A model generated the notes under the pieces. The model ran no database searches. It was not told the origin of the DNA and saw only the letters and a program-made list of their open reading frames with translations. DNA of 32,965 nt, taken from positions 1 to 32,965 of the forward strand of contig CALVGY010000004.1 in the NCBI GenBank assembly GCA_944327215.1, written 5' to 3'. The number at the start of each line of letters is the position of its first letter. The first letter of the stretch is position 1. Positions 5,656 to 22,859 of this stretch are shown piece after piece. A program made the translations under genes and the position numbers. The stretch comes from Candidatus Gastranaerophilales bacterium. Its GTDB lineage: Bacteria; Cyanobacteriota; Vampirovibrionia; Gastranaerophilales; Gastranaerophilaceae.

Positions 5656-7683
5656 TTATTTTATCTTTGCTTCAAGAGCTTTCAAACGCGCCTCTTGTTT
5701 TTTATTATCATTTTGAATTTGTTTAATTGTCTCTTTTAACTGTTGATTTTCTTTTTCTAGCACTAAAATACGAGTATCCAATTCTTTTATAGCATTAATC
5801 ATTGCATAAAACATATCTTCAAAACGTATTTTTAAAAACCCGTCTTTTGCCTTGCTCACAGCATTTGGAAAAACTTTTTGCAAATCTTGGGCTATTACAC
5901 CTACATGCGGAGTTTTCTTGTCATCTTTTTTAAATGTATAATTGAAAACCTTTAATTGACGAATTTTATCAAGACCTGAGGTACTTTCTTTCCCTACATA
6001 TTTTAATCGACGATCTGAGTAGAATAAACTATACCATTTATCATACCAACCAATTTCTCCTTTTTCAGCCCCTAAATCCTTATTATTTAGATATGGTCTT
6101 AAATTATCGTCATCACCGTCCATATTATCAGATCTCACTACTGCCAAATCTCTACCATTAGCTCTACGCAATGCAACTGCACCACCTAAAAGATTTAATA
6201 AAACTTGTCTCCCAACTACTAATCTGCCGGGAATATATACTGTAGTGGCTGTATTCCCTAAATATATAACATTATTTAACGAGCTTGTTGGGCTATCTTT
6301 ATAAGGATCAGAATTAGCACCAATACAAGTTACATTATTTCCTGTTGCATATTTACAAGCATTTGCACCTATTGCAATATTGTTTGTCCCTGCAGCTTTA
6401 GCACCATCACCTATTGCTATTGAAGATTCCCCTGCAGCTTTAGCACTATATCCAACCGCAATTGCACTAGATTCACTAGCAATTCCCCAAGTACCTATTG
6501 AAATTGAATTATTACCTCTTGCTTGAGTAGTAAAAGCATATTGTCCAATGCTTCCTATTGCAATTGAACTAGAACCTGCTGCGTAAGAATTATGACCTAT
6601 CGCAATTGAATAATCTCCTTGTGCTTGAGAGGTAGCAGTGGAACTTTCTGATAAACCTCCTAATGCAATTGAATGAAGACCTGATGCAGTAGAATTACCA
6701 CCTATAGAAATTCCAGCATTACCAGTTGCATTTGCAGCATTACCGATTGCAACGCCGGAATTTCCACTCGCTTGTGAACTATAACCGATTGCTATTGTCC
6801 CTTCTTCATTTGCAGTTGGGAATCCCCCCAATGCTACAGAATATTTTCCGTATGCCATTGCATTAAATCCGATAGCTGTTGATCTTTCAGCATTAGCCTG
6901 AGACTGTGCTCCAATGGCAGAGGTATTCTTCTCTAATGCCTTTGCTTGACTTCCTATTGCTGTTGAAGATGTGTTCGTAGCTTCTGAAGAGTCACCGATT
7001 GCTATAGAATTATTCCCGCTTGCTGTTGTTGAAGTATTATTAATAGGGAGAGTAGAACCGATTGCTATAGATGTCATTCCAGATGATTTTGCTTTATTGC
7101 CTATTGCGATAGAAGCTTGTTCTGATGATTGAGATTGACTGCCCAACGCTATTGATACAGCCCCTGTTGCAGAACTTTTATATCCGTATGCTGTTGATGT
7201 ATCCCCTGATACTTTAATATCTGCTCCTACACCGGTACTGTTACTACCTGGGGTAGTTGTGGTTGTGCCTAATAAAATACCTTTATTTACCATTCGTAAA
7301 CGACCTACAACATCCTCGTTTGATTTAAATAATATATGGTCCTTGGTCCCAGCGGTATTAATTAATAAACGAGCTCCGGTATCTGTGTCTAATGCTTTTG
7401 CTTGTCCGATCATTGCAATTTGGGCATTACCTATCCCGTAATAGGCATCTGAGCCGTTATCTGCCCAAACCCAAGGAGAAGATTGATCCAGTTTATTCCT
7501 TGTCGTCATGACAGGTGCCATTGCAGCCATGATGATACTTAATATCAACATGACTACCATCATTTCTGCCAATGTAAATCCTAAATTGGATTTACGAAAC
7601 ATGTTTATATGGGCAAAACCCTTGTTAGGAGTGCTTAGAGTGCCCCCCCCCCCGAAGATATTTTTATTTAATGAATTTTTCAT
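5656..7683 (-). CDS. Chimeric surface adhesin: type IV prepilin N-terminus, YadA-like head repeats, S74 self-cleaving chaperone
   Basis: 675 residues from ATG 7683 (AAGGAG 5 nt upstream; an in-frame GTG lies at 7689). A 35-residue leader ends SNLG, followed by FTLAEMMVVMLILSIIMAAM, a prepilin peptidase site with Glu at +5 and a hydrophobic helix. After about 100 residues come some 20 YadA/Hia-head-type repeats of about 14 residues (SIAIGxxAxAxG; DNA about 6330-7200), which in trimeric adhesins form a left-handed beta-roll. The C-terminus is a peptidase S74 intramolecular chaperone: SDRRLK has Ser556 and Lys561, spaced like the Ser/Lys dyad of endosialidase, then HVGVIAQDLQKVFP and a coiled coil (about 635-675). 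Inference: a trimer anchored by or assembled with type IV pilus machinery. The poly-G tract in the leader is described separately. Single gene with its own terminator. Confidence 0.85.
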   Translation of the reverse strand: MKNSLNKNIFGGGGTLSTPNKGFAHINMFRKSNLGFTLAEMMVVMLILSIIMAAMAPVMTTRNKLDQSSPWVWADNGSDAYYGIGNAQIAMIGQAKALDTDTGARLLINTAGTKDHILFKSNEDVVGRLRMVNKGILLGTTTTTPGSNSTGVGADIKVSGDTSTAYGYKSSATGAVSIALGSQSQSSEQASIAIGNKAKSSGMTSIAIGSTLPINNTSTTASGNNSIAIGDSSEATNTSSTAIGSQAKALEKNTSAIGAQSQANAERSTAIGFNAMAYGKYSVALGGFPTANEEGTIAIGYSSQASGNSGVAIGNAANATGNAGISIGGNSTASGLHSIALGGLSESSTATSQAQGDYSIAIGHNSYAAGSSSIAIGSIGQYAFTTQARGNNSISIGTWGIASESSAIAVGYSAKAAGESSIAIGDGAKAAGTNNIAIGANACKYATGNNVTCIGANSDPYKDSPTSSLNNVIYLGNTATTVYIPGRLVVGRQVLLNLLGGAVALRRANGRDLAVVRSDNMDGDDDNLRPYLNNKDLGAEKGEIGWYDKWYSLFYSDRRLKYVGKESTSGLDKIRQLKVFNYTFKKDDKKTPHVGVIAQDLQKVFPNAVSKAKDGFLKIRFEDMFYAMINAIKELDTRILVLEKENQQLKETIKQIQNDNKKQEARLKALEAKIK
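7643..7653 (-). repeat. Poly-G (11) tract inside the start of the adhesin gene
   Basis: Eleven consecutive C on the plus strand, i.e. G11 in the coding strand, encode GGGG at codons 11-14 of the adhesin. It is the longest G/C homopolymer I see in this AT-rich window. Length change by slippage would shift the frame right after the start codon, the pattern of phase-variable contingency genes. Confidence 0.9.
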
Positions 7684-7760
7684 ACTCACTCCTTTATGAA
7701 ATTAATATTTAATCCTTATTATAATTATAACTTATTAAATAAATTTTTACAATATTACAT

Positions 7761-14628: not shown

Positions 14629-16524
14629 ATGAATAAAAGTCAATCTGCAGGAATGTATATAGTATTAGCAATCGTTGTATTGCTGTTTGTTTCCTCCGTA
14701 TTTTTGTCAAGTCCGACAACCAAAGTCACTGAAATTTCATATTCAAATTTCTTAGAAAGACTTGATAAAGGAGAATTTAAAAAAGTTGAAAAAGCAGATG
14801 ATTTTTTATTTGCAATTCCAAAAGTACAACCTAAAACAGAAACTCCAAAAACAACAACAGCAATGGACAACCCATTTGGAATTCCTGTAGAAAAAGCTCC
14901 TGCCTTAAAATACAAAGTTTTAACACCTGCATTTGACCCTGATTTAATGAAAAAGTTAGATGCCTCTGATGCTGAAGTTCAAATCACAAGGGCTTCTGAT
15001 TCATCAAAAACACTTGGAAACGTTTTGAGCTATCTATTGCTTCCAATACTATTTTTAGTATTTTTAGCAGTAATGGCAAAAAGCATTCAAGCAGGCGGTT
15101 CTCAAGCAATGTCTTTTGGGAAAAGCAAAGCAAAAATGCTTCTTGACAGCAAAGTAAAAACAACATTCAAAGATGTTGCAGGGATTGATGAAGAGAAAAA
15201 AGAACTTGAAGAAATCGTAGACTTTTTGAAAAACGGTGATAAATATATAAAATTAGGAGCAAGAATTCCTAAAGGCGTTCTTCTTGTAGGCCCTCCGGGA
15301 ACAGGTAAAACATTAATGGCAAAAGCTGTTGCAGGAGAAGCAGGCGTTCCGTTCTTCTCAATAAGCGGTTCTGATTTCGTTGAAATGTTTGTTGGTGTAG
15401 GTGCAAGCCGTGTAAGAGATTTGTTTGACCAAGCTAAAAAACATCAACCTTGTATTATATTCATCGACGAAATTGATGCCGTAGGCCGCCAACGTGGCGC
15501 CGGAATGGGAGGCGGTCACGATGAACGTGAACAAACTCTTAACCAATTATTGGTAGAAATGGACGGGTTTGATGAAAATACAAATATCATCGTAATCGCT
15601 GCAACAAACAGACCTGACATTTTGGATAACGCGTTATTAAGACCTGGAAGATTTGACAGACAAATTTATATCAACGCACCTGATGTTAGAGGTAGAGAAG
15701 AAATCTTAAAAGTTCATGCAAAAAATAAACAGCTTGAATCTGAAGTTGATTTAAAAACTCTTGCAAAACGTACCCCAGGATTTACCGGTGCTGATTTACA
15801 GAACTTACTTAATGAAGCAGCACTTCTTGCGGCTCGCAATAACAAAGATAAAATTTCAATGGAAGATATCGACAATTCTATTGACAGAGTAATCGCAGGT
15901 ATTGAAAAGAAAAGTAAAGTAATGACTGATGAAGACAAAGAATTAACTTCATACCACGAAGTAGGTCACGCACTTCTTGCAAGACTTTTGAAAGATGCCG
16001 ACGAACTTCACAAAGTATCTATAATTCCACGTGGGTATGCATTAGGTGTAACTTGGACAAAACCTAAGGATGAAAAAGTTCATACAAATAAAGCTAAATT
16101 GTTAGCTCAAATTACAGTTTCATTAGGCGGCCGTGCAGCAGAAGAAATTGTATACGGCAAAGACAGAGTTAGCACAGGCGCATCTCAAGACTTGATTAAT
16201 GTAACTAATATCGCAAGAAAAATGGTTACAGCCTGGGGTATGTCTGATAAATTAGGCAATATGGCATACGGTAAAAACCAAGAAAATGTATTTATGGGCA
16301 GAGACTTTGGACACCAAAGAGATTATTCAGAACAAGTGGCATTTGAAATTGACGAAGAAATGAAAAGAATCGTTGATGAAAAATATGATGAAGCTAAAAA
16401 AATCTTAAACGAAAATAGAGATATGCTTGAAGCTATTTCAAAAGAACTTCTTGACAAAGAAACTATTGATGCAACAGAATTTGACGAAATAATGAACAGA
16501 GTAGAAAGTGAAAGACAAAGTTAA
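14629..16524 (+). CDS. ftsH: ATP-dependent zinc metalloprotease FtsH
   Basis: 631 residues. Membrane helix about 7-26, a periplasmic/lumenal domain to about 125 with a Pro/Thr-rich insert ([14 protein letters not shown]), second helix about 130-150. AAA+ module: Walker A GPPGTGKT at 221-228, Walker [13 protein letters not shown], second region of homology [21 protein letters not shown]. The zinc protease site is HEVGH at 443-447 with the third-ligand region [23 protein letters not shown]. It degrades membrane and short-lived soluble proteins as a hexamer. The end overlaps the next gene by 17 nt, so ftsH heads an operon with two corrinoid-protein relatives. Confidence 0.97.
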
Positions 16525-17173
16525 ATATATTCTGGAAGCCCCGATAAAATCGGCTCATAAAATTTTAAAAGAAGACTATGACATAATAGGTTTGATTGTT
16601 GAAGATGAAGAGGATGAAGAAATTTTAAAAAATCTTCTTCCTCTCATAAAAAAACCTATTATGCTTAGATGTACAGGAGATGACACTAAAGATCAAGAAT
16701 TATTACCCAAATTTATTAAACTTCTTGATAGGGAAAGCATTATAGCTTATGTAAATGAAAATACTTACAAAAAGATTTTGCCATCAGTTATAACCGGCAA
16801 TCACAAACTTGTTATAAGAACCCCAATTGACATAAATCTTGCAAAAGAAATGAATATTTTGACATCAGATTTAGGCCTGCCGCTTGACAAAATCATAATA
16901 GACACAGATATAGGAGGGTTAGGCTACGGTTTTGAATATGGCTACAGCATAATGGAAAAAATAAAACTGGAAGGTCAATCAAAAGATAAATATCTTGATA
17001 TGCCTTTAATTTCATTCGCAGCAGAAGAAACTGCCAAAACAAAAGAAGCTCGAGATGAAAAATTAGGGCTTTTCTTGGAAATATCTGCAGCAGCAGGTGT
17101 AAAAGCTGCAGGGGCATCTTATATAGTTTTAACAAAGCCTGAAGCTTTAAATACAATGAAGGAGCTTGAATGA
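16508..17173 (+). CDS. Shortened relative of the corrinoid iron-sulfur protein small subunit (AcsD/CdhD-like)
   Basis: 221 residues from GTG 16508, inside the 3' end of ftsH. It looks like part of the TIM-barrel of the CO dehydrogenase/acetyl-CoA synthase delta subunit family: [59 protein letters not shown] (the barrel strand with the family's DPxxGxLGYGxEY pattern) and [17 protein letters not shown]. The full subunit is about 310 residues, so the N-terminal part is missing. The next gene, overlapping by 4 nt, encodes the matching large-subunit relative. In the Wood-Ljungdahl pathway these carry the methyl group on cobalamin, but no other genes of that pathway are here. Fold assignment fairly sure, activity not. 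Confidence 0.75.
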
Positions 17174-18291
17174 CAGAACTTTCAGGATTACAAATTTTCA
17201 AATACCTTCCGGCTGCAAAAAAAGCAGAGCACACAAACTGCAAAACTTGCGGCTCACCTACCTGTATGGCATTTGCGCTCAAACTTGCAAAAAAACAAAC
17301 AGATATTGAAAAATGCCCATACGCCCCTGATGCACTAAAACAAATTTATATACAAAGTTCCAAACAACCGCAAAAAACTGTTGAAATAAACGGGGTTAAA
17401 ATCGGCGGAGAAAATGTTCTTTATCGTCACGAAAAAACATTTATAAATAAAACCGCAATAGCAATAATAATTGATATGGCCAAATCCGATTGGCAAAAAA
17501 AATATCAACAAATAAAAGATTTTGAAATAACCCGCGTTAATGAAAAAATTAAAGTAGATTTAATAATAACCAAAAATGGAACTTTGTCTGATACCATATC
17601 TTATGAAGATTTCAAAAAATTACCTTTAACAGAAATTATTGATGAAAATTTCAATGAAACATCAGAAAAACTAATCAATATAAGAAAAAAAGCAATATTA
17701 GAAAAAGATGAAAAATATTCAAATCCCGCTTACGTATACTTTAATCACACAGACAATTTAAAATTACTCTGTGCAAAAGCAAGTTTCTATATCTGTAAGT
17801 ATGCAAATATGCTTGTTTTTGAGGATTTTGATGAAACGCTTATAACATCTTTAATGACTATACGCCAAAATATATTTACAGATCCTCAAAAACCTCTGCA
17901 GGTTGAATCAAAAATATATGAATTTAACAATCCTGATGAAAATTCTTTAATATTTATGACAACAAATTTTGCCCTGACATTTTTTGCTGTCGCAAATGAG
18001 TTGGAAAGTCTTCCTGTCCCTTCATATCTGATAGTAATTCCGGCGGAAGGAATGAGTGTATTAACAGCCTGGTCTGCAGAAAAATTTACTGCAAAAATTG
18101 TTGCTAATACTTTGAAAAAATTTGATTTTGCAAATAAAGTTAAAAACCACAAAATTATTATCCCGGGACTTCTTGCACACATGAAAGATGAATTGGAAGA
18201 AGAAATAAAAGATTTTGAAATAATCGTAGGTACAATAGAAGCTTTTGCAATAAGCGATTTTGTAAAAAATTTAAAAATTAATCAGGAGTAA
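17170..18291 (+). CDS. Relative of the corrinoid iron-sulfur protein large subunit (AcsC/CdhE-like)
   Basis: 373 residues, start overlapping the previous stop (ATGA). The N-terminus LSGLQIFKYLP...NCKTCGSPTCMAFALKLA matches the AcsC [4Fe-4S] domain, with C24, C27, C32 and C49 in CX2CX4CX16C spacing. The middle replaces most of the family's barrel and is diverged. The C-terminal part resembles the corrinoid-binding domain: VPSYLIVIPAEGMSVLTAWSAEKFTA, KIIIPGLLAHMKDELEEEI, EIIVGTIEAFAISDFV. Family length is about 445, so it is shortened by about 70. With the AcsD-like neighbour it may still form a cobamide-carrying methyl-transfer complex, perhaps feeding a methyltransferase other than acetyl-CoA synthase. 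Translational coupling to ftsH is unusual. Confidence 0.8.
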   Translation: MTELSGLQIFKYLPAAKKAEHTNCKTCGSPTCMAFALKLAKKQTDIEKCPYAPDALKQIYIQSSKQPQKTVEINGVKIGGENVLYRHEKTFINKTAIAIIIDMAKSDWQKKYQQIKDFEITRVNEKIKVDLIITKNGTLSDTISYEDFKKLPLTEIIDENFNETSEKLINIRKKAILEKDEKYSNPAYVYFNHTDNLKLLCAKASFYICKYANMLVFEDFDETLITSLMTIRQNIFTDPQKPLQVESKIYEFNNPDENSLIFMTTNFALTFFAVANELESLPVPSYLIVIPAEGMSVLTAWSAEKFTAKIVANTLKKFDFANKVKNHKIIIPGLLAHMKDELEEEIKDFEIIVGTIEAFAISDFVKNLKINQE

Positions 18292-19233: not shown

Positions 19234-20013
19234 TCAGATAATATGTGAAAATGATAAAAAGTAATCTGAAATAATATTAACCAACATTGGCAAAATCCAA
19301 ACCATTATAGCAGCTCCCAAAACAGGCTTGAAAAGAAAGCTTAATTGAAAAACGTTCACCTGAGGAGCAGTCTTTGAAATTACCCCTAAAATAATATCTT
19401 GCCCCAAAGTAGCCAACAATATTGGAGATGCTATCTGAAGCCCCATAAATAAAACATTTGACGATAATTCAACCATATAATCAAGATTTACAAGCTTTGC
19501 TAAAGGAATTAAAGTTGCATCTAAAGGAAATATCTCAAAACTTCTCATGAAAGCATTCAAAATCCAATAAACCCCGCCAAGATTTATAAAAATTATTAAA
19601 CCTAAAAATGAAAAGCACTTACCAACAATAGAAACTTGAGAAGATGTTGTAGGATCCAAAACCATAGCAGATGACAATCCCATTTGCATATTTACCATAT
19701 CACCGCCCGCATCTATTGCCAGAAGAATTAATTGTCCAATATAACCCAACATTGCACCTACAACCATATTTAAAAATATAGAAAGGACAAAAGATTCTTT
19801 AATAATATGTACATCAGGTTTGACAGTACAAGTTAAAATAATTGAAAAAATTAATGCCAGACTAAGTTTCACCATGCCAGGAATTTCTTTACGGTTAAAC
19901 ACAGGAGCTAGTCTAAAAAAGCCCAAAAGCCTTGCAAATATAAAAATTCCCGCGGCCAAATATGCATTCAGCATCGGAAACATTTTCATTAATTCTGTTA
20001 TAAGAGCTTCCAA
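19234..20013 (-). CDS. fliR: Flagellar export gate protein FliR
   Basis: 259 residues from TTG 20013, with AGGGAG 8 nt upstream inside the end of fliQ. Six hydrophobic segments of the FliR/SctT family; typical strings are IFARLLGFFRLAPVFNRKEIPGMVKLSLALI, GAMLGYIGQLILLAIDAGGDMVNMQMGLS, and LATLGQDIILGVISKTAPQVNVFQLSFLFKP. FliR with FliP and FliQ forms the helical export gate of the flagellar secretion system. Last gene of the minus-strand set. Confidence 0.94.
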   Translation of the reverse strand: MEALITELMKMFPMLNAYLAAGIFIFARLLGFFRLAPVFNRKEIPGMVKLSLALIFSIILTCTVKPDVHIIKESFVLSIFLNMVVGAMLGYIGQLILLAIDAGGDMVNMQMGLSSAMVLDPTTSSQVSIVGKCFSFLGLIIFINLGGVYWILNAFMRSFEIFPLDATLIPLAKLVNLDYMVELSSNVLFMGLQIASPILLATLGQDIILGVISKTAPQVNVFQLSFLFKPVLGAAIMVWILPMLVNIISDYFLSFSHII

Positions 20014-20017
20014 TTAA

Positions 20018-20506
20018 CTATCTCCCTAAAATTGTGTTTGTTTCTACGAAATCAGGTTTTGGCATCGGTGTTTGCGGACTCGGAATATATTTTGTTTTCT
20101 GTTGATTATCAACATAAGGAACTTTACCCGGATTTTTCATCATTTCATTAATTGATGGCTGATTTTTAAATTTATCATTCATCTCATGTTCAAATGGAGA
20201 AGTATATTTGTAATAATCTGCCGGCAAAACGTAAGAATCACTTTTTGAAACGAGATTAAACGCCATTGCAAACCCTTCATTTACAAAGCCTTTTAACATG
20301 TTTATAAAACCTATTCCGCCAATAACTATAACAAGAAAAACCCCGAGAATTTTTGGCGCAGCAGCGATTGTCTGCTCCTGAACCTGAGTAACAGCCTGTA
20401 AAATCCCGACTACAAGACCTATTCCGGCAGCTACAAGAACGCAGGGCATAGAAATAGCCAGCATTATTAAAAAACCTTTTGCTAAGTATTCAATTAAAAC
20501 TTCCAT
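20018..20506 (-). CDS. fliQ: FliQ with an unusual C-terminal extension
   Basis: 162 residues from ATG 20506 (GGAAAGGG 5 nt upstream; TTG 20521 is an in-frame alternative). Residues 1-85 are FliQ: two helices with GLVVGILQAVTQVQEQTIAAAPKILGVF between. The family normally ends near residue 90. Here about 75 more residues follow, polar and Pro-rich (VLPADYYKYTSPFEHEMND, NPGKVPYVDNQQKTKYIPSPQTPMPKPDF), with no stop or frameshift visible. The tail might contact the switch or export apparatus. Four nt separate it from fliR. Confidence 0.92.
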   Translation of the reverse strand: MEVLIEYLAKGFLIMLAISMPCVLVAAGIGLVVGILQAVTQVQEQTIAAAPKILGVFLVIVIGGIGFINMLKGFVNEGFAMAFNLVSKSDSYVLPADYYKYTSPFEHEMNDKFKNQPSINEMMKNPGKVPYVDNQQKTKYIPSPQTPMPKPDFVETNTILGR

Positions 20507-20570
20507 TTTTACCCTTTCCAAGAATGTCTTGTATATCTACCATGTATTCTAAATATTTTTTGTTCTTTCA

Positions 20571-21212
20571 TCAGTTATAACTTGTAACAAGTCCTTGTAC
20601 AATCAAAGCCCAGCCATCTACCGCAATAAATATCAATAACTTAAACGGCAATGAAATAATCGTCGGAGATAACATAAACATACCGAGTGCTAATAATATA
20701 TTCGCTACAACAAGGTCTAGTACAATAAACGGAACAAATATAATAAAGCCGATTTCAAATGATGTTTTTAATTCGCTTATGATAAATGCAGGAGCAACCT
20801 GCCATACTGTGATTTCTTCAGGATTTTTCGGCGCTTTGCCATTCGATTTCTCAATGAAAAATGCCAAATCACTTTCCCTTGTCTGCTTCATCATAAATTC
20901 TTTTAAAGGTTTTGACCCCTCATTTATCGCCTCTATAACATTTTGATTTTTATGATACGGAACGGAACCCATTTCATACATCTTTTGAAACGTAGAACCC
21001 ATTGTATAAAATGTTAAAATCATTGCAAGCCCTATGATTACAATAGAAGGTGGAACCTGTTGAGTACCAAGCGCTGTTTTTAACATTGAAAATACTATAA
21101 CAAATCTCAAAAAACTTGTCATACAACAAAATACTAACGGTAACAACGAAAATACCGTCATTAATATTAGCATTTGTAAAACTGGGTTCATATCTTTTAT
21201 AATTGTATCCAT
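20571..21212 (-). CDS. fliP: Flagellar export gate protein FliP
   Basis: 213 residues; AAGGAAA 9 nt before the ATG. Conserved FliP strings: MTSFLRFVIVFSMLKTALGTQQVPPSIVIIGLAMILTF near the start, the central periplasmic region with ESDLAFFIEK, then PAFIISELKTSFEIGFIIFVPFIVLDLVVANILLALGM and LPFKLLIFIAVDGW. Shorter than E. coli FliP (245) because there is no cleavable signal peptide domain; the first helix begins at once. Fits the operon order fliO-fliP-fliQ-fliR. Confidence 0.95.
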   Translation of the reverse strand: MDTIIKDMNPVLQMLILMTVFSLLPLVFCCMTSFLRFVIVFSMLKTALGTQQVPPSIVIIGLAMILTFYTMGSTFQKMYEMGSVPYHKNQNVIEAINEGSKPLKEFMMKQTRESDLAFFIEKSNGKAPKNPEEITVWQVAPAFIISELKTSFEIGFIIFVPFIVLDLVVANILLALGMFMLSPTIISLPFKLLIFIAVDGWALIVQGLVTSYN

Positions 21213-21227
21213 TATGTTTTTCCTTTT

Positions 21228-21608
21228 TTATAGTTTGTTTATCAAATCTTTAAAAACTTTCTTTGGTTGATGTGCAGCATTTATATTAACAATTGTCGGA
21301 AGCTCATCAACGCCTTGCATTTCATCTGATTTGGAACTTATTATTTCATTATTACATTTGCTTTTGATATCAAGTTTTGATATTAAAGAGGTTTTATCAA
21401 CATCAGATGCAACAAGAAATCTTTCGTTGCCTGCTCGAATTACGTAAATATTTTTGCGAGGGCCTAAACCTATACAATCCTCAATATCAAGAAATTTTGA
21501 TTTTGATACTGATGAATAGGAGAACTTTTTATACACAAAAACAGCTAAAAAAATCATTCCGATCATTGCTGCTGTATAAACTATAAAATTTATCAAATAT
21601 ACGCTCAT
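21228..21608 (-). CDS. fliO: FliO-like flagellar export assembly protein
   Basis: 126 residues; AAAGGGAT upstream of the ATG. One N-terminal membrane helix (about 5-26), then the small soluble domain typical of FliO: DCIGLGPRKNIYVIRAGNERFLVASDVDKTSLISKL. The C-terminal tail is polar. FliO helps FliP assemble in the export gate. Its position directly before fliP (15-nt gap) is the main support; FliO is poorly conserved, so the call also rests on context. Presence of FliO favours a flagellar rather than an injectisome system. Confidence 0.82.
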   Translation of the reverse strand: MSVYLINFIVYTAAMIGMIFLAVFVYKKFSYSSVSKSKFLDIEDCIGLGPRKNIYVIRAGNERFLVASDVDKTSLISKLDIKSKCNNEIISSKSDEMQGVDELPTIVNINAAHQPKKVFKDLINKL

Positions 21609-21653
21609 TTTTTATCCCTTTATAATTTTAAATTGCTTATATCCCAAAAATTT

Positions 21654-22859
21654 TTATATATCCTCATCTTCTAATTCAAAATCGCTGTAGTCAAATTCAT
21701 CTTCCTCACTTGCCGGCTGTTCACCTTGCTGAGGCTGAGGAGCTGATTCTGATTGAGAATTTGAATTGTCATTGATTTCAAATGAATCATTTAATTCATC
21801 TTCCAAACCGTTTGATTGTTGAACTTCAGCTGAAGGAAGCTCATTTGTCGGTGTTTGAACTATTACTTCATCTATTTTTACGCCATATCTGTCATTTACA
21901 ATAACAAGTTCTCCTCTGGCAATCGGTTTGTTTTCCACACTCAATGTTACCTTGTTATCATATATTGAAGTAAGATCTACAACCAAACCTTCTTCTATCT
22001 TTTTTAAATCGCCAAGAGTTATTTTTACCGTATCGAATTGAGCGCCCATCTCAACTTCAATACTGTCCCAAAGACTTGAATTCTCTCCTGCCATATTATC
22101 TTCTCCTTCCTCATTTTCCACCGGTATTACCAGTCCTAAATTCGGGTTTAAATTTATTTCCTTCTCATAATCCTTGAACTTTATTACCATATGATTAATA
22201 TCACTGTTGTCAAAAACAACGATATCATCAACTTCAATATTTTTTACATCTTTTAACTTGAATTTTGTACTGCCAATTTTGACTGAAACATTAATTATAC
22301 TTGTAGAAAAAGCTCCATAATCAAACTTGTCTCCTTGGGATACAACAGTTTCCGGGTTTAACAACTCTTCAGGCAGCGTAATTATAAATTTTGCAACTCT
22401 ATTTTTTTCAATATCTTTTATCAAAAAAGTTAAATGCACCACATCAAAATTAGTTCTTTTTAAAGTCGGAGGCGCCGGGGAAAGAAATTGAGATGTCATA
22501 TTAAACATATAATCATTGAAAGCAGTAATAATCTTTGCTTCCAAATCGGTTAATTTATTTAAATTAAATCTTGAGTTTGGTTTCCCTAAAATTTTGTCTA
22601 AAATTATCTCTACAGCTTTTTCAGATGTTCTGAAAAACATATCATGCAACTTATCTATACGAATTTTAGTTACAAAATATGCATCCTTATCCATTAATGT
22701 ATTTATATTCTTGCTTATGCCGGCCAAGATAAATTGAAATCCGGGGAGAAAAAATTCATCACAAGCAGCTTGAACAGCCGGCGGATATGTCTTTGCAAAC
22801 CAGTTGTACTGCGCATACAATTCTTTATAATCTATTGAGTTGATTTTTTGATTAATCAT
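21654..22859 (-). CDS. Flagellar motor switch protein with two SpoA domains (FliM/FliN-like)
   Basis: 401 residues; the ribosome site is weak (AAGGGA about 14 nt away). The N-terminal 180 residues are helical with some similarity to the FliM/FliY middle region. Two SpoA domains follow: about 187-245 (INVSVKIGSTKFKLKDVKNIEVDDIVVFDNS) and 265-335 (VEMGAQFDTVKITLGDLKKIEEGLVVDL... ARGELVIVNDRYGVKIDEVI). The second is the better FliN match. A 60-residue acidic/Gln-rich tail ends FDYSDFELEDEDI. Two SpoA domains in one chain resemble SctQ of injectisomes more than standard FliM or FliN, which carry one each. As first gene of the fliOPQR set it presumably builds the cytoplasmic ring. Confidence 0.82.
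   Translation of the reverse strand: MINQKINSIDYKELYAQYNWFAKTYPPAVQAACDEFFLPGFQFILAGISKNINTLMDKDAYFVTKIRIDKLHDMFFRTSEKAVEIILDKILGKPNSRFNLNKLTDLEAKIITAFNDYMFNMTSQFLSPAPPTLKRTNFDVVHLTFLIKDIEKNRVAKFIITLPEELLNPETVVSQGDKFDYGAFSTSIINVSVKIGSTKFKLKDVKNIEVDDIVVFDNSDINHMVIKFKDYEKEINLNPNLGLVIPVENEEGEDNMAGENSSLWDSIEVEMGAQFDTVKITLGDLKKIEEGLVVDLTSIYDNKVTLSVENKPIARGELVIVNDRYGVKIDEVIVQTPTNELPSAEVQQSNGLEDELNDSFEINDNSNSQSESAPQPQQGEQPASEEDEFDYSDFELEDEDI

Follow-up and report, generated by a model that had tools for sequence, protein, structure and literature searches.

Trimeric adhesins on a pilin-type anchor: a probable phase-variable family in Candidatus Gastranaerophilales

How does a cell display a predicted adhesin that starts as a type IV prepilin, continues as a YadA-like head and ends in a self-cleaving S74 chaperone, and is such a protein always made? 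The question is raised by one gene in a 32,965-nucleotide stretch of Candidatus Gastranaerophilales DNA (contig CALVGY010000004.1 of assembly GCA_944327215.1), here called the window. The gene lies on the minus strand at 5656-7683 and, from the ORF list and Pfam, encodes 675 amino acids plus a stop codon. The longest program-called ORF at this locus opens at a GTG (7687-7689, minus strand). The ATG at 7681-7683, which is preceded at a distance of 5 nt by a Shine-Dalgarno-like AAAGGAG (7689-7695, minus strand), is the likely start codon and gives the 675-residue protein. Residue numbers (Gly35, Ser556, Lys561) are counted from this ATG. We consider it probable that the gene belongs to a multi-copy group which, in Candidatus Gastranaerophilales, encodes trimeric adhesins that are pilin-anchored and phase-variable.

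A Pfam search of the protein returned N_methyl (2.9e-07, 30.2 bits against a cut-off of 21.2), YadA_head in 12 stretches (4.5e-37) and Peptidase_S74 (1.2e-15), all above the curated cut-offs. Most of the architecture in the original prediction is thereby borne out. The proposed prepilin start is present as SNLG35/FTLAEMM, the S74 domain carries the proposed Ser556 and Lys561, and the proposed C-terminal coiled coil is a confident helix in the structure model. A pilin-type anchor does stand where a barrel would be expected, and the YadA_anchor barrel was found neither in the protein by Pfam nor elsewhere in the genome. The prediction had also counted about 20 SIAIG-type repeats of 14 residues; glycines are indeed spaced 14 residues apart, but the strict SIAIG-type motifs number 15. 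The domain order, which was to be sought in other genomes, recurs across the genus and the order. It is therefore neither a chance arrangement nor an assembly join, and an artefact fusing two genes was ruled out.

The neighbors of the gene are the housekeeping genes rsmD, HU and spoIID. Elsewhere in the window we observed minus-strand flagellar export and switch genes (fliR, fliQ, fliP and a gene for a FliN-domain protein) at 19237-22859. The CdhD family (CO dehydrogenase/acetyl-CoA synthase delta subunit) is matched by two adjoining genes at 16508-18288, and an Fe-S motif is present in the second of them.

The class III leader (7579-7683, minus strand) is unusually long at 35 residues, ends in SNLG and holds the G-run described below. 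It is followed by the prepilin N-terminal helix FTLAEMMVVMLILSIIMAAMAPVMT (7504-7578, minus strand), which matches N_methyl and carries Glu5. About 25 residues are modelled as helical. In the AF2 monomer the helix spans residues 3-25 and is followed by low confidence. It looks short, and the model shows no clear globular pilin module after alpha-1. These features suit a reading in which the helix is merely an inner-membrane anchor, the heads are periplasmic or shed, and the pilus machinery is irrelevant; processing by prepilin peptidase is, moreover, only predicted here. We consider this reading unlikely, as Phe1 and Glu5 of the class III motif are invariant in 30 aligned proteins and the same genome carries a secretin, PilB/GspE and PilC/GspF consecutively in one operon on contig C33. 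The hypervariable tip and chaperone described below also follow a logic that suits a surface adhesin.

The absence of a prepilin peptidase had been named as a result that would count against a pilin-type route, and a genome search found none in this draft assembly. Exactly one is present in 31 of 33 congeneric genomes. In relatives, pilD lies near ruvA, and in this genome contig C15 ends within ruvA on the pilD side (match to 24378 of 24380). Because nearly all congeners have the gene and ruvA is broken at the expected site, we judge the missing peptidase to be an assembly gap and rejected a true absence of PilD. An earlier study describes type IV pilus genes, pilD among them, in a member of the Gastranaerophilales order (PMC5877343).

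The middle of the protein is a YadA-like beta-roll head with 14-residue repeats (6256-7236, minus strand), assigned from Pfam, Foldseek and the model, and it is the variable part. The AF2 monomer starts and ends with a helix and has a confident beta-roll; its S74 body is poorly resolved (pLDDT ~36-58). The best solved Foldseek matches of the head are the trimeric adhesin heads of BpaC, CbpF, BoaA and YadA. Modelling the S74 segment alone also gave a poor result (pLDDT 61.6), and the C-terminal coiled coil was again a confident helix.

The S74 intramolecular chaperone and its C-terminal coiled coil occupy 5659-6018 (minus strand), as placed by Pfam, profile match and a motif census. Catalytic Ser-Lys pairs of known S74 proteins are five residues apart (MyRF S587/K592 and endoNF S911/K916; PMC8326128), and Ser556/Lys561 has the same +5 spacing. 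All 96 distinct S74 domains of the family, which were located by a different motif, contain SDxxxK. A profile of the family S74 parts matches the MyRF ICA structure 7dc3 as well as phage fibres. We anchored an alignment of 91 sequences on the cleavage serine. Positions -20 to -1 are nearly unconstrained at 3.7-4.0 bits per residue, and the Ser, Asp, Arg, Leu and Lys of the S74 start are invariant, with 0 bits at Ser and Asp. The conservation cliff thus falls at the predicted self-cleavage point, with a hypervariable part that would be retained and a constant chaperone that would be discarded. The hypervariable segment just before the site (6019-6255, minus strand), delimited by the conservation profile, is the predicted C-terminal tip after self-cleavage. 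Two cleavages of the adhesin, at the prepilin site and at S74, are plausible.

The original prediction mentioned neither a G-run nor cassette-like variation. The coding strand of the leader contains a run of eleven Gs (G11; C11 on the plus strand) at 7643-7653, which lies 30 nt past the ATG. At the length assembled here the gene is in frame (ON), and gaining or losing a single G (G12 or G10) leads to a stop 15-19 codons after the ATG. An in-frame ATG (Met28) lies 3' of the run, just before FRKSNLG, and has no good ribosome-binding site; a start at Met28 is a possible way around the run in this gene.

In many copies across the family, the leader places the same run about 30 nt after the ATG, with a length of 9, 10 or 11. 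The run is present in 34 of 95 S74-type leaders (24 G10, 7 G11 and 3 G9) and absent from 61; lengths were read from draft metagenome assemblies, one genome per species, and the 34 leaders are related, so the counts are not independent. Twelve of the 34 are in frame (ON) and 22 are out of frame (OFF), an ON share of 35% against about one-third expected if phase were random. In 34 of 34, the frame can be restored by a nearby tract length. Between the run and the prepilin, all 34 leaders keep the pilin frame open, 65 of the 68 alternative frames are closed, and 26 of the 34 have no ATG, GTG or TTG before the prepilin motif. Because only the pilin frame is kept open and most leaders lack an internal start codon, the interval is coding, and ribosomes must cross the run to translate it. 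Of the 13 OFF genes that no contig or locus end truncates, 12 are intact through to the end of S74, which speaks against decay and for reversible switching. Taken as a whole, the family G-runs bear the signature of slipped-strand phase variation, from which we infer slippage. Two family leaders, L031 and L098, have an interrupted run (GGGGAGGGGG and GGGGGAGGGG, respectively) and are out of frame; these are possibly locked-off copies.

As G10 dominates, the OFF majority could be due in part to consensus assembly, or to expression through slippage during transcription or on the ribosome. This dominance and the intactness of OFF genes would also fit a run that acts as a slippery site for programmed transcriptional slippage or frameshifting, with OFF genes being dose-limited and yielding a fixed low fraction of full protein. 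We find that improbable: a fixed programme would favor one register, but all three lengths (9, 10 and 11) are found, and 12 genes read in frame with the length they have.

We then considered runs outside the S74-type genes. The window genome has 11 runs of at least 9 Gs, and 8 of these are in the 5' leaders of prepilin genes. Apart from the run in the window gene, the remaining 7 belong to other pilin-like proteins of the GFTLAEV/GFTLPEV type. These seven prepilin-like genes have G9-G10 leaders, most out of frame, and are found on contigs C25, C33, C45, C58 and C68 (three genes on the last) of the window genome, G000 (loci L151, L153, L154, L156 and L157). Members of this class have an in-frame ATG and a promoter-like TTGNNN-TATAAT between the run and the prepilin motif. 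This arrangement may possibly allow short-leader or leaderless expression, and the effect of the run is less certain in this class because both elements come after it.

The other three runs are outside prepilin genes. A C10 run lies on the coding strand of a GT2-like glycosyltransferase (G000:C50:2188-2197; locus L155), whose 302-codon frame is open only at C10 and is truncated by C9 or C11; this is likely a second class of phase-variable gene. A G10 run (G000:C30:18507-18516) is intergenic, after the stop codon of an ExbB/MotA-like gene and before the ATG of an OmpA/MotB-like one, and is kept in another species (L205:2560). The last is a G13 at a contig edge. Run lengths across 638 kb from relatives have a bimodal distribution that dips at 8 and peaks at 10 (4 runs of 7, 1 of 8, 3 of 9, 17 of 10 and 3 of 11). 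A chance origin was rejected on the basis of these lengths and the stereotyped position. We also observed that about 40 of 50 distinct G-runs in the fetched loci, including those in unrelated contexts, are preceded (5') by TC and followed (3') by C, which might point to how G-runs arise.

These runs bear on a rival reading of the locus, in which the gene encodes a single constitutive adhesin that uses a new, barrel-free route for YadA-like heads, does not switch, and has a G-run that only encodes a poly-Gly linker. The architecture and machinery are as first claimed, and the majority of S74-type leaders have no run, both of which agree with it. It is nonetheless quite improbable. The run is kept as DNA in differing frames and positions, and in the 22 OFF leaders it is out of frame; runs also occur in a glycosyltransferase and between genes. 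A Gly linker has no need of G-only codons (GGG makes up 67 of the 444 Gly codons tallied in window ORFs) and leaves the OFF copies unexplained. We therefore rejected a poly-Gly linker as the cause of the run, given the differing frames, the OFF copies and the runs outside prepilins.

Like the run, the gene itself is not confined to this locus. Its named relatives are mostly from metagenome assemblies of Candidatus Gastranaerophilales (Melainabacteria). Of 33 genomes of the genus, 31 contain relatives, the richest of them with 27 matching pieces. The arrangement pilin, head, S74 and coiled coil is shared by dozens of full-length proteins. YadA heads and S74 domains are also combined in phages and giant viruses, as a viral fold search showed, but a degraded prophage tail-fibre gene with a chance prepilin-like helix is hardly credible and a phage origin was rejected, given the housekeeping neighbors, the lack of relatives in viral contigs by protein scan and the order-wide multi-copy pattern.

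The window genome holds a second copy of the adhesin, split over contigs C55 and C30, and the two copies differ in a cassette-like manner. The constant anchor cassette (7189-7609, minus strand) is 98.6% identical to the paralog on C55, and its central ~395 nt are essentially 100% identical, synonymous sites included. The heads are 70-81% identical and rearranged. From its serine codon onward, S74 matches the C30 paralog at 97% identity over 243 nt. Across genomes, the anchor (N-terminal) segments have a median identity of 85% within a genome versus 69% between genomes, and the S74 segments 91% versus 73%, with a few loci counted twice in these medians. The uniform ends within genomes have the pattern of concerted evolution, most simply by recombination between copies; recent duplication with head replacement is another possible source.

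We lean, by a modest degree, toward two layers of surface variation on Gastranaerophilales prepilins. The poly-G run in the leader would set which copies are ON, and recombination between the constant anchor and the discarded S74 would swap trimeric heads and hypervariable tips. In the broader reading that we hold to be probable, replication slippage at the leader G-run would shift the frame, such that in the window gene G11 reads into the pilin and G10 or G12 stops soon after the run. Each cell would then express a random subset of the tract-bearing copies, and copies without a run would always be available. In an ON copy, homology suggests that the preprotein is inserted via its prepilin helix and cut after Gly35 by prepilin peptidase. 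Three chains would, again by homology, form their YadA-like heads in the periplasm with the C-terminal S74 as guide. With its invariant dyad, the S74 trimer is predicted to cut before Ser556 and leave with the coiled coil, and the trimeric head would keep its new C-terminus as a tip. The pilin helices may then enter a type IV pilus or T2SS-like filament, for which PilB, PilC and secretin are present, and so display the head. Recombination between copies would keep anchor and chaperone uniform, diversify heads and tips, and make leaders exchangeable. The outcome would be a switchable, diversifying repertoire of adhesins for gut surfaces, for other microbes, or for escape from phage or host immunity. 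The logic of the two layers would resemble pilin plus opacity variation in Neisseria, here in a Gastranaerophilales version with phage-fibre chaperone biology.

Several known systems share parts of this scheme. Raynaud et al. 2021 (PMC8179133) list pilin plus S74 (IPR012902-IPR030392) among the 15 commonest modular pilin architectures and take the S74 as a peptidase function. CofB is described as a trimeric tip pilin in PMC8179133 and PMC10191384. The phrase "new secretion solution for YadA-like heads" in the original prediction is therefore too strong, as pilin plus S74 was already counted among modular pilins in 2021 and both CofB and the MAT fibres of Bdellovibrio are known. Modular pilins (PMC8179133; review PMC10191384) and the adhesin share a class III prepilin start with a grafted domain, and T4P/T2SS-type machinery is present in the genome. 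Unlike the domain of that description, the adhesin S74 follows a YadA-like head and is consistent with a chaperone that trimerises and removes itself. The available descriptions of modular pilins (PMC8179133) include no phase-variable leader G-run or cassette diversification. The AF2 model of the adhesin shows no evident globular pilin module.

The YadA-type trimeric autotransporters (BpaC, BoaA, CbpF and YadA) share the head fold and the 14-residue repeats. However, they have a Sec signal and a C-terminal barrel, whereas the adhesin has a pilin-type N-terminus, a C-terminal S74 and no YadA_anchor. The S74/ICA proteins (endosialidases, T5 pb1 and MyRF; PMC8326128) have the same +5 Ser-Lys dyad and C-terminal coiled coil. 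MyRF likewise pairs a membrane anchor with S74, but the protein described here is by prediction a bacterial surface adhesin with its anchor at the N-terminus. The mosaic adhesive trimeric (MAT) fibres of Bdellovibrio (PMC10769870), for which cleavage at the serine is demonstrated, are a cell-encoded, multi-copy S74 family with diverse tips, as in the adhesin family. MAT proteins have a signal peptide, a conserved ~130-aa beta domain and no prepilin site, and the available text mentions no G-runs; the adhesin has a prepilin start instead.

Poly-G loci in Neisseria, Campylobacter and the pili of Bifidobacterium (PMC5320596, PMC6321876, PMC9187656) have intragenic runs of about 9-11 Gs that turn surface structures and glycosyltransferases ON or OFF by frame, as is proposed here; the Bifidobacterium case is poly-G switching of gut commensal pili (PMC9187656). 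In Gastranaerophilales, by contrast, the run is in prepilin leaders, extends across the whole prepilin repertoire and belongs to a non-photosynthetic cyanobacterial sister lineage. The openly accessible literature yielded nothing relevant on phase variation or S74 adhesins in Melainabacteria/Gastranaerophilales, and no paper there was found that combines pilin plus S74, trimeric tips, S74 fibres and poly-G switching.

If this reading is correct, pilin-"peptidase" S74 fusions in the databases would be recast as self-trimming trimeric adhesins. The phase switch would be placed in the prepilin leader, a part removed from the mature protein, so that the G tract would cost the final fibre nothing. 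A common gut lineage known mainly from metagenomes would then have a sophisticated surface-variation system, which suggests how it may meet host mucus, other microbes, phages and immunity.
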